Shown: positions 40,922 to 62,767 of the stretch, piece by piece | Layout of the letters: each line of letters opens with the position of its first letter | Numbering within the stretch: the first letter of the stretch is position 1 | NCBI GenBank assembly: GCA_035498015.1 | Contig: DATKAO010000134.1 | Location: forward strand, 1 to 62,963 | DNA: 62,963 nt | Direction of reading: 5' to 3' | DNA from: Myxococcota bacterium | GTDB taxonomy: Bacteria > Myxococcota_A > UBA9160 > SZUA-336 | Translations under genes and position numbers: made by a program | Notes under the pieces: generated by a model | Database searches by the model: none | What the model saw: the letters and a program-made list of their open reading frames with translations, nothing else | Told to the model about the DNA's origin: nothing

Positions 40922-42148
40922 ATGGAGATCCTGGCGCTCTATACGTCGCCCGACACGCTCGGGTCCGCACTCGCAGCCGGTGCCCGCCACCTGGCGGCCG
41001 CGCTGCAGGGCTTCGCGCTCGTGTACCAGTCGGGCCGATCCGCCGCGGAGCCCGACGGCTGGGCCGGCTTCACCTGCGCCAAGGACGCGCAGATCGCCGG
41101 CGCAGAGCTCGAGGAGTTCATTCGCGAGGCCGAGGCCTCGGAGCGCCCCGTGCGCATCGACCCGCCCGAAGGCAGCCCGCGCGTCTGGGCGCGCGGCGCC
41201 GGCGGCGTGTTCGGCTTCCCGATCCGCCACAACGGCCAGCCGCGCGGCGTCGCGCTGCTGGGCTGCCCCGGCCCCTGGCCGCGCGTGCAGAACTCCGGGA
41301 TCGAGTCGATCCTGCGCCAGATCGCGCTCGTGCTCGACCACCACGTGGTCTCGGGCAGCCGCGCGCCGGCCGAGCCCTCCGACGAGGTCCTGCGCCTGTC
41401 CGAGCAGTTACTCGCGCAGGACATCGAGCTGATCAAGCGCGAGGAGCGACTCACTCTGGTCGAGCGGCTGAAGGCCGACTTGATCGAGACCATGTCGTAC
41501 GAGCTGCGCGCGCCCCTGAACAGCATCATCGAGCGCGTGATCTCCGTGCTCGCCAACGAGCACGAGAAGCTGTCCTCGACCGGGCGCGACGCCCTGCGCG
41601 GCGTGCTCGACGACGGCAACGCGCTGATGCGCATGCTGCAGAACATCCTCGACCTGTGGCGCGTGAAGCAGGGCGAGGTCGCGGTCGAGGTCCAGGACGT
41701 GAACCTGGCCGAGGTGATCGAGGAAGGCATCTTCAACGTGCGTGACACGCTGCAGCCCGAGGTGGTGCTGGAGAAGCGCCTGCCCTCGAGCCTGCCGAAG
41801 ATCCGCACGGACCTCGCGAAGCTGAACCAGATCCTCTTCCACCTGCTCGACAACGCGGCCAAGTTCACGCGCCGCGGCCGCATCGAGCTCGAGCTCTCGG
41901 TCGAAGAAGGTCAGCTCTTCTGCAGCGTGACCGACACGGGCATCGGCATCGCGCCGGACGACCAGGAGCAGATCTTCGACGAGTTCTTCCGCGTCGACTC
42001 CTCCGTCGACAGCCGCCACCGCGGCGCCGGCCTGGGCCTGACCCTCGCCCGAGCCCTGATCGAGAAGCTCGGCGGAGCGCTGTCGGTGCAGAGTGAGATC
42101 GGCTCCGGCTCGCGCTTCAGCTTCACGGTGCCGGTGACCATCTCGTAA
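40922..42148 (+). CDS. GAF-type sensor histidine-kinase homologue lacking the phospho-acceptor His
   Basis: 408 aa, soluble. Seen: an N-terminal GAF-like domain (about 1-150: GVFGFPIRHNGQPRGVALLG), a coiled helix, then the dimerisation helix KADLIETMSYELRAPLNSII, in which the invariant His of the H-box (MSHELR) is Tyr193 (codon TAC at 41498-41500). The ATPase domain is intact: N-box LLDNAAKFTR, G1 VTDTGIGIAP, FDEFFRVD and G2 GAGLGLTLARALIEKLGG. Known: such degenerate kinases can act as allosteric partners or phosphatases. Six bases after the PilT-like ATPase. Inference: an ATP- or ligand-gated regulator of pilus retraction rather than a classical phospho-donor. No response regulator adjacent. 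Confidence 0.85.
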   Translation: MEILALYTSPDTLGSALAAGARHLAAALQGFALVYQSGRSAAEPDGWAGFTCAKDAQIAGAELEEFIREAEASERPVRIDPPEGSPRVWARGAGGVFGFPIRHNGQPRGVALLGCPGPWPRVQNSGIESILRQIALVLDHHVVSGSRAPAEPSDEVLRLSEQLLAQDIELIKREERLTLVERLKADLIETMSYELRAPLNSIIERVISVLANEHEKLSSTGRDALRGVLDDGNALMRMLQNILDLWRVKQGEVAVEVQDVNLAEVIEEGIFNVRDTLQPEVVLEKRLPSSLPKIRTDLAKLNQILFHLLDNAAKFTRRGRIELELSVEEGQLFCSVTDTGIGIAPDDQEQIFDEFFRVDSSVDSRHRGAGLGLTLARALIEKLGGALSVQSEIGSGSRFSFTVPVTIS

Positions 42149-42170
42149 GAGCCGGATCTTCTCGGCGCCT

Positions 42171-42516
42171 TGCGCTCCGAGCAATACCCGCCGGTCGCTG
42201 CTTCGCGAGTACGCTCCAGACGCTCCCTCTGGGTATTGCTCCGGACGCGCAGGCGAAACAGAGATCGCCTCTCCCAACAAAGTACAAAGTCGCGCCGGCG
42301 CTCTCGCCAGTGCGACCCACCGGGCCGCGTTCGCTGCGCCATCGGGCGCGGACCGCAGTGTCGACGGGGCAACCAACGCCGACGCGTTTCCTAATTTTGC
42401 GCAAGCGAAGGATCTGATCCGCGCGCGCGGCCGGGCAAAACCCGGAGGGAGCGTCTGGAGCGTACTCGCGAAGCAGCGACCGAGGGTTTTAGCCCGGAGC
42501 GCGGCGCGCAGAGATG
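42171..42516. repeat. Nested-hairpin intergenic repeat element, copy A
   Basis: Three hairpins in a row. Left: GAGCAATACCC (42179-42189) pairs with GGGTATTGCTC (42231-42241). Centre: CCGCG/CGCGG around a 17-nt loop (42330-42346). Right: CCGGGCAAAACCC (42431-42443) pairs with GGGTTTTAGCCCGG (42484-42497). The loops of the two outer hairpins are themselves a perfect 38-bp inverted repeat of each other (42192-42229 and 42445-42482). The element ends in GCGCAGAGATGCTCT, 4 bases before the rpoZ stop. It fills the whole gap between the kinase homologue and rpoZ; no coding potential. A related copy lies at 62404-62762. Confidence 0.9.
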
Positions 42517-42519
42517 CTC

Positions 42520-42723
42520 TTAGTGCTCAATGTCCTCGATGTCGGACAGCACGTATCCGGCGGCGACTTCGCGCAGGGCGTTCACCACCGACTTGTTCTC
42601 GCCGGCCTTCACCAGGCCCTTGGCACCGCGCATCAGCTGCTTCGTCCGGACGGACACCATCAGCACCAGGGCGAAGCGGTTGCCGACGCGCTCGGTGCAG
42701 TCTTCGATCGTGATGCGGGCCAT
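42520..42723 (-). CDS. rpoZ: DNA-directed RNA polymerase subunit omega
   Basis: Known role: small subunit that helps assemble beta' into RNA polymerase and, in many bacteria, forms part of the ppGpp site. Seen: MARITIEDCTERVGNRFALV and RTKQLMRGAK, then KSVVNALREVAAGYV, an acceptable match across the whole 67-aa protein. Start ATG at 42723 with GAGGAGGCAC. No gmk or spoT neighbour, as would be common elsewhere. Preceded by a strong terminator that insulates it from the small basic protein gene upstream. Confidence 0.95.
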   Translation of the reverse strand: MARITIEDCTERVGNRFALVLMVSVRTKQLMRGAKGLVKAGENKSVVNALREVAAGYVLSDIEDIEH

Positions 42724-42767
42724 GCGAGTGCCTCCTCGAGATCGGGCGGCAGGCTAGCAAAAGAAGA

Positions 42768-42797
42768 AGCCCCCGTCGCTCCGAAGCGACGGGGGCT
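42768..42797 (-). terminator. Rho-independent terminator of the 36-aa basic protein gene
   Basis: A perfect 13-bp stem, AGCCCCCGTCGCT against AGCGACGGGGGCT, with a 4-nt loop. On the minus strand it is followed by TCTTCTTTTG, a T-rich tract. It lies between the small gene (stop at 42828) and rpoZ. Confidence 0.9.
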
Positions 42798-42827
42798 CCC
42801 CATCTGGAAAATCAGGCTAGCGACGAC

Positions 42828-42938
42828 TCACATCTTGCGGCGTCGCGTGGCCTTGCGTCGGCGGGTGCCCTTCTTGCGGCCACCCTTCTTGCGCCGCGTC
42901 GCCTTTTTCTTGCTCGCGGCCTTCTTCCGAGCTGCCAT
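42828..42938 (-). CDS. 36-residue Lys/Arg-rich protein, histone H1-like
   Basis: ATG at 42938 with GGGGGTGAG before it. The product, starting MAARKKAASKKKATRRKKGG and ending RRRKM, is more than 60% Lys+Arg with repeated AxxKK and KATRRxK units, like the tails of bacterial histone H1-like and AlgP proteins. Expected to bind nucleic acid (DNA or rRNA). It has its own promoter candidate (43039-43068) and terminator, so it is a genuine, separately expressed gene. It might instead be a ribosome-associated peptide, given the neighbouring COX24-like protein. Confidence 0.75.
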   Translation of the reverse strand: MAARKKAASKKKATRRKKGGRKKGTRRRKATRRRKM

Positions 42939-43038
42939 GTCTCTCACCCCCAAATTGATGACTGACACTCACCACCGAAGCTCGAAGTATCCGAGAACGG
43001 AACCCGAAAACGGATGCTTCCCGACATCGGTTGCACAC

Positions 43039-43139: not shown

Positions 43140-43235
43140 TTAGCGCTTGTTCCGCTTGTGCCGGTTGCGCGCGCGCAGCTTCTTGTACTTGTGCTTGCGC
43201 ATCTTCTTGCGGCGCTTCTTGATCACACTGCCCAC
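43140..43235 (-). CDS. AURKAIP1/COX24-domain small basic protein (31 aa)
   Basis: Seen: starting MGSVIKKRRKKMRKHKYKKL and ending RHKRNKR, this matches the SVIKKRRKRMxKHKxxKLLRxxRHxRR consensus of the COX24/AURKAIP1 family, whose mitochondrial member is the small ribosomal subunit protein mS38. Bacterial versions are similarly short and are thought to associate with the ribosome. Start: GTG at 43235, with the family's MGSVIKK right there; GGAGG lies 10 bases upstream. The frame continues upstream without similarity. Followed by its own terminator. Confidence 0.85.
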   Translation of the reverse strand: MGSVIKKRRKKMRKHKYKKLRARNRHKRNKR

Positions 43236-43293
43236 GGAAACTACGGCCTCCACGCTCGAGTGGCGGCCGAAGTTATCCGTGTGCAGTGCTGTG

Positions 43294-43797
43294 TCAAGCG
43301 CCCTGAACGCGCGCGGCGACCCAGGCCGCACGTCCCAAGACGCGCGCCTGCATGCGGCCGAGGAAGCGGTTGACCGCATGATTGCGCGGCAGGAACCGGA
43401 TCGGAGGCCGGCGACGGATGCCGAGGTCGGCGAGCCGTCGCTGAACGGCCGCGTTCTCGGGATCGACCATCAGCCCGCGGCGCAGAAAGCGGATCGCGTC
43501 GGCCTTGAAGTCGAACGCGAGATAGATCCGCGCCAGGTTGAGATACAGATCCGGGTTGTAGAACTCCTGCCGCACGGCAGCACGCGCGAGCTCGACCGCG
43601 CCGAGGAATTGACCCCGCACGAGGGCCAGCGCGAGCGCGTACGACGAGCGGAAGCGCGCGTTCTGGGGATCGATCAGATAGGCACGCGAGAGATGCTCGA
43701 ACCCCTCGTGACCATGCCCCGCCTCGAGCAGCGCCAGACCGCGCCGGTGATGCTCTTCCGGGGTGAACTCTCCGCTGTTTTGCATGGAACCTGCCAT
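43294..43797 (-). CDS. TPR-repeat protein of unknown function
   Basis: 167 aa, cytosolic (no signal peptide). Seen: about three tetratricopeptide units (HRRGLALLEAGHGHEGFEHL, PDLYLNLARIYLAFDFKADA, then RFLRRGLMVDPENAAVQRRL) and a basic C-terminal tail (RRRPPIRFLPRNHAVNRFLG). A protein-protein adaptor is likely; partner unknown. ATG at 43797 with GGAAGGGAG. It follows the PAS histidine kinase gene after 91 bases and could belong to its regulon. Confidence 0.82.
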   Translation of the reverse strand: MAGSMQNSGEFTPEEHHRRGLALLEAGHGHEGFEHLSRAYLIDPQNARFRSSYALALALVRGQFLGAVELARAAVRQEFYNPDLYLNLARIYLAFDFKADAIRFLRRGLMVDPENAAVQRRLADLGIRRRPPIRFLPRNHAVNRFLGRMQARVLGRAAWVAARVQGA

Positions 43798-62330: not shown

Positions 62331-62403
62331 TTAAAAGAGTCGGCGCGCAGCTTATCGGGGGTCCGGGGTGCCGTCAATGCTCGGACTCGGACTCGAGCAT
62401 CGA

Positions 62404-62762
62404 GGCGCGCTGCGCTCCGCGCAGAAGCCCTCCGTCGCTGCTTCGGGAGTACCCTGCAGACGCTCCTCCGGGCTTCCGCGCCGGCCGCGCGCGCGAAAGA
62501 GATCAGCCCGCCGCCACACTAGAAGAGAGAACGCGTCGACGCTCCAGCCAGTGCAACCCTGCAGTCCGCGCCCGATGGCGTTGCGAACGCGGACTGGATG
62601 GTCGAAGGGGCGAGCTCTTCGACGCGACCTCGTATTTGTTTGTGAGACACCGAGGTCTCGTTCGCCGGCGCGGCCGGGGCAAAACCCAGAGGGAGCGTTG
62701 CGAGTCTTCGAGCACAGCGACCGACGGGTTTTAGCCCGGAGCGCCAGGCGCAGAGATGCTCT
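62404..62762. repeat. Nested-hairpin intergenic repeat element, copy B
   Basis: Same plan as the element at 42171-42516. Left hairpin: GAAGCCC (62424-62430) with GGGCTTC (62470-62476). Centre: CAGTCCGCG (62562-62570) with CGCGGACTG (62588-62596) around a 17-nt loop that matches the reverse complement of copy A's loop at 15 of 17 positions. Right: CCGGGGCAAAACCC (62674-62687) with GGGTTTTAGCCCGG (62726-62739). Outer loops match copy A and, inverted and imperfectly, each other. Ends in GGCGCAGAGATGCTCT, 5 bases before the lepB stop. No coding potential in this 451-base gap; the rest up to 62330 is pyrR leader. Confidence 0.88.
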
Positions 62763-62767
62763 GGATC

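Follow-up and report, generated by a model that had tools for sequence, protein, structure and literature searches.

A dispersed inverted repeat with the layout of a bidirectional terminator fills the gap between convergent histidine-kinase and rpoZ genes

The gap between the kinase and rpoZ genes

The window, that is, the whole stretch of 62,963 nucleotides that was analysed, carries a histidine-kinase-like gene and rpoZ, the gene for the omega subunit of RNA polymerase, in convergent orientation. The 371 nt from the stop codon of the kinase gene to that of rpoZ are wholly occupied by one inverted-repeat element (Table 1). The original prediction had described a nested-hairpin element forming the 3′ UTR of rpoZ. 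This location was confirmed, but not its restriction to rpoZ, since the element adjoins the stop codons of both genes. It is built as an arm hairpin, an A-rich tract, a long central hairpin, a T-rich tract and an inverted arm hairpin, and its ends (TAAGAGC...GCTCTTA) supply terminal inverted repeats beside the arms. The arms are ~95 nt long and start GAGC..GCGCG; the left arm lies on the sense strand for kinase transcripts and the right arm on the sense strand for rpoZ transcripts. The element contains no coding transposase, as had been noted from the sequence.

The outer inverted repeat (42155–42239 with 42435–42519) extends over 85 nt with 84% complementarity. Within it, the 38-nt loop CGGTCGCTGCTTCGCGAGTACGCTCCAGACGCTCCCTC is found at 42192 on the plus strand and at 42445 on the minus strand, once each in the window and with zero mismatches. 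RNA folding of 42150–42530 gave z = −14 against dinucleotide shuffles. The sequence and the fold thus agree with the predicted arrangement of two outer hairpins, with exact inverted 38-nt loops, around a central hairpin. Both of the alternative folds that had been proposed were also recovered, the local three-hairpin fold at about −175 kcal/mol and the long-range fold at −240 kcal/mol, the latter being the more stable in isolation. Differing inner stems would favour the local hairpins, though the long-range fold is more stable given the whole strand.

Two short reading frames lie nearby on the minus strand: 43140–43379 encodes a small, very basic protein with a match to COX24_C (PF08213), and about 42835–42939 holds another short ORF rich in lysine and arginine.

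Table 1. Features of the convergent gene pair and its element, and the second copy in the window.
Feature	Position	Strand	Basis or remark
Histidine-kinase-like gene	40922..42148	+	Pfam HATPase_c 1.7e-27; TAA 42146-42148 adjoins element
Whole element	42149..42519	.	inverted repeat occupying the entire gap between convergent stops; copy of a dispersed family
Left arm hairpin, conserved loop and covarying stem	42163..42258	+	arm model (R1) 105.5 bits; folds alone at -49 kcal/mol
Left-arm 38-nt loop region	42192..42229	+	exact inverted copy of right-arm loop
A-rich tract before central stem	42276..42289	+	sequence; T-rich for a minus-strand transcript
Central hairpin, candidate bidirectional terminator stem	42290..42386	.	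fold, A/T tracts
T-rich tract TTTCCTAATTTT after central stem	42387..42398	+	sequence
Right arm hairpin	42417..42511	-	arm model (R1) 103.8 bits
Right-arm 38-nt loop region	42445..42482	-	sequence match to left-arm loop
rpoZ (RNA polymerase omega)	42520..42723	-	Pfam RNA_pol_Rpb6 2.8e-14; TAA 42520-42522 adjoins element
Second window copy	62390..62767	-	between tandem genes; two loops of different classes, not inverted copies

Dispersed copies, empty sites and stop codons

Copy numbers were obtained by searching the contigs of the draft genome, an assembly that is 95% complete. The element gave 34 blastn matches, and a covariance model of the arm detected 25 arm hairpins at 15 loci, as expected of a short non-coding element (about 370 bp) in many dispersed copies. 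A diverged arm class, D, is present at three further loci (C41, C55 and C98) and was found with the C41 copy as query. Four contigs (C100, C181, C18 and C41) start within a copy and, as repeats break assemblies, the true copy number may exceed the count. We put the family at about 15–18 copies, which are lineage-specific, dispersed insertions. No family match was detected by blastn or the covariance model in 10 relatives from the same family, one of them from the same genus. The exact loop patterns had no match in public genome contigs or viral contigs, and blastn of the element against plasmids and phages was likewise negative. No Rfam family scored above its gathering threshold for the element, the only hit in the window being a tRNA elsewhere, and relaxing the threshold added sub-threshold matches only.

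Relatives of the kinase come from uncultured 'Deltaproteobacteria' MAGs. In the same-genus genome, where the kinase orthologue is 84% identical, the kinase and rpoZ stops are 10 nt apart, compared with 371 nt here. The two genes are convergent neighbours at eight of the relatives' loci, and the element is missing from every other family member examined. A second convergent pair, at C211, has 4 nt between its stops in the same-genus genome and 372 nt here, and flank searches located syntenic element-free sites in that genome for C83, C93, C110, C131 and C134b as well. These empty sites in a close relative establish that the copies are insertions. The original prediction had seen no target duplication, and no clear one appeared at the empty sites. 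TA is present at both ends in the window copy alone and at one end in about six other copies; a TA target duplication would suit the window copy but not most of the others, and no consistent duplication emerged across the copies and empty sites compared.

Two further observations concern sequence at such sites. In a relative of another genus (G009), some 600 nt of unrelated sequence containing repeated hairpins occupy the kinase–rpoZ gap (895–1498 of L043), so the same gap apparently acquired another palindromic insert there. In copies C83, C131, C199 and C134b, tandem GAGCCG / GAGTCC units separate the stop codon from the end of the element (in C83, TGA GCC(GGAGCC)n), possibly through slippage or as a trace of the insertion process.

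Placement relative to genes was far from random. About 17 of the 25 arms start in the first 12 nt after a stop codon (a hand count from the arm listing that includes two small genes missed by the simple gene caller), a zone that makes up 4.6% of intergenic bases. The binomial probability is about 1e-17, for arms that are not independent of one another. Convergent genes flank at least seven copies, most of which adjoin a stop at either end; tandem genes flank C134b, C83 and C131. TAA stops are rare in this genome, at 2/115 other genes, but were used at 5/18 element-adjoining stops (Fisher p = 0.0005), mostly within TAAGAGC. This excess suggests that insertion supplies the stop codon. The placement itself could come from targeting or from the survival of harmless insertions. 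Another common sequence, TTCGCCTGCGGCTCACTGCGCGCG, was seen right after stops at L033 7061 (C181) and L026 10241 (C131) and is possibly a second 3′-end repeat family.

Covarying stems and conserved loops

The inner stems vary by arm (AAAA, AATA, AATT, GAAG, GTTA and others, beside CCC/GGG), and still each matches its own partner strand. None of 20000 permutations equalled the pairing of cognate arm strands, a test that is independent of the model alignment. That alignment has 97.2% of its cells paired, a share that falls to 30–54% when partners are slid, and changes on both sides were found in 12 pairs and 50 cells, compared with 6.2 and 11.8 in shuffles (0/500); this alignment was fitted to the same structure, and its covariation counts lean toward that structure. 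Central stems vary too, and their cognate pairing also beats permuted pairing, more weakly than in the arms (254/20000). The structural constraint that had been predicted is therefore borne out by compensatory stem changes across copies, and the family is neither a single sequence nor a random scatter: copies are many, their placement is non-random and compensatory change is strong.

The loops are the most conserved part of the arms and fall into a few classes. In the original prediction, their perfect match within the window copy was taken to imply selected loop–loop pairing or gene conversion. This part did not survive comparison of the copies, because loop classes combine freely (A/A and B/B, but also B/C) and differ in half of the two-armed copies. 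Gene conversion between arms was rejected on a second count: left and right arms within a copy are 76% identical, compared with 80% between arms of different copies. The exact match follows from both arms being copies of a single module, which is most strongly conserved in its loop. Separately, at about 2700–2960 of L108 (C98:20500-26500), a class-D arm is attached to another kind of palindromic body (GGCCGAGCGAAGGCCGCCC...GTGAGCCACCTGGCGAACGAAGTC), which suggests module exchange between repeat families.

A candidate terminator and its relation to known repeats

On both strands of most copies, the 20 nt that follow the central stem contain about 9 T, at a genomic T content of 14.5%. The tract is absent on one side in C131 and C55, and in C181 it was scored on one side only. 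A GC-rich stem with A-rich and T-rich flanks, set between convergent genes, is the layout of a bidirectional intrinsic terminator, and such an arrangement of A-rich and T-rich sequence around a stem has been described for this type of terminator (PMC1852404). The tracts of the window copy are interrupted, and a simple terminator scan of it gave a weak short stem on one strand only. Just upstream of rpoZ, at 42765–42800 on the minus strand, there is a canonical intrinsic terminator with a 16-bp GC stem, a TTCG loop and a T-rich tail, indicating that this genome uses intrinsic termination.

The explanation that we consider rather probable, judging from sequence, is a MITE- or REP-like mobile repeat that acts as a bidirectional terminator and gives each adjoining gene a structured 3′ UTR hairpin. 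The element would insert, or survive, right after stop codons, chiefly in the few-nucleotide gaps of convergent genes, presumably mobilised by some enzyme. A transcript of either gene would then pass its stop and read one arm in the sense direction as a 3′ UTR hairpin, and the central stem with its U-rich tract would be expected to bring about intrinsic termination before the opposite arm and gene were reached. With its palindromic plan, the element could serve both convergent genes, and it probably ends the transcription of both. The arm may in addition protect or stabilise the 3′ end of the transcript.

A purely selfish MITE or REP-like repeat, in which the hairpins are kept for a mobilising enzyme, the terminator features are incidental and the placement reflects survival of harmless insertions, is a serious competitor that we nevertheless regard as unlikely. 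A dispersed, lineage-specific inverted repeat of MITE size is what it predicts, some copies do sit in tandem gene pairs, and the TAAGAGC ends often supply a TAA stop, much as GTAG-REPs provide TAG with their termini (PMC3733652). However, it leaves unexplained why diverged copies have retained A/T tracts to either side of the centre, and the search for the machinery of such a repeat was negative. PF01797, the Y1 (RAYT) transposase, had 0 matches in the 95% complete assembly, where controls matched, and was accordingly rejected as the mobiliser. Nor was an autonomous transposon with the same ends found, as all end matches with up to 2 mismatches were known copies or chance matches inside genes, in a draft that may miss a parent; the lack of a consistent target duplication points the same way.

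Two other explanations turn on the conservation of the arms. If the arm were a regulatory 3′ UTR RNA, bound by a protein or acting as a sponge or sRNA precursor, it would link 15–18 genes into one post-transcriptional regulon. Loops that are conserved while stems covary would be expected of a structured nucleic acid that is recognised, and the arms always lie in sense to the adjacent gene. We nonetheless find this improbable, given several loop classes, no Rfam family above threshold, and stem mismatches (13 G-U and 9 A-C) so nearly equal in number that RNA-level selection is not told apart from selection at the DNA level. The compensatory changes might instead be a mutational by-product, because correction of quasipalindromes by template switching, a known process at strong inverted repeats, keeps stems perfect without selection. 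Such correction predicts that an unpaired loop is not conserved, whereas conservation is in fact highest there, and the process accounts for neither the placement nor the A/T tracts; we consider it very improbable.

A literature search for a named family of mobile bidirectional terminators returned only analogues, namely SPRITE, REP/BIME/REPIN, MITEs and paired uptake sequences. The pneumococcal SPRITE, a single 18-bp duplex with a U-rich tract that is enriched between convergent genes (PMC3049150), resembles the element as a dispersed, terminator-like repeat with strong convergent-gene enrichment. It differs in that the present element has a two-sided centre between two inverted ~95-nt hairpins whose loops are conserved and whose stems covary, in an unrelated GC-rich genome. 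REP units are 20–40 bp long, carry GTAG or CGTC tags and are in many cases linked to RAYT Y1 transposases (PMC3733652). REP, BIME and REPIN sequences are also palindromic and intergenic, occur as inverted pairs 3′ of genes and between convergent genes, and can supply a stop from their termini (PMC3733652). In contrast, the units here are ~95 nt in a genome without Y1_Tnp, and the arms show neither a GTAG nor a CGTC tag at the base of a 20–40 bp palindrome; the element lacks those defining features of RAYT-linked REPs that were tested. Bacterial MITEs such as QMITE of Coxiella share its non-coding character, 100–400 bp length, terminal inverted repeats, stable stem-loop and TA at some ends (PMC5896051). 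Against this stand the failure to find a parental transposase or common ends, the strong stop-codon placement, the covarying stems and the restriction of TA on both ends to the window copy. Two features of a MITE in the strict sense, a parent element and a consistent duplication of the target, were not found. Paired DNA-uptake sequences that act as terminators in Neisseria and Pasteurellaceae are likewise inverted repeats in tail-to-tail gaps, A-rich on one side and T-rich on the other, but consist of 10-bp words, compared with a 371-bp element (PMC1852404). The element is thus an interspersed palindromic repeat with terminator layout; similar elements are known, and this family and its build are new.

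A bolder idea, doubtful but worth stating, is that the arm is a folded module recognised by its loop and shape, rather than by its stem sequence, and that an undescribed single-strand or RNA-based mobilising system delivers two-way terminators to stop codons.

Few mobile repeats that also serve as transcription terminators have been documented. Here one genome combines insertion, extreme placement at convergent stops and conservation at the level of structure, with compensatory changes. The family hints at a mobilising enzyme, and its copies, with their natural range of stems and loops, allow a test of whether mobile elements have been recruited by bacteria as insulators between facing genes.
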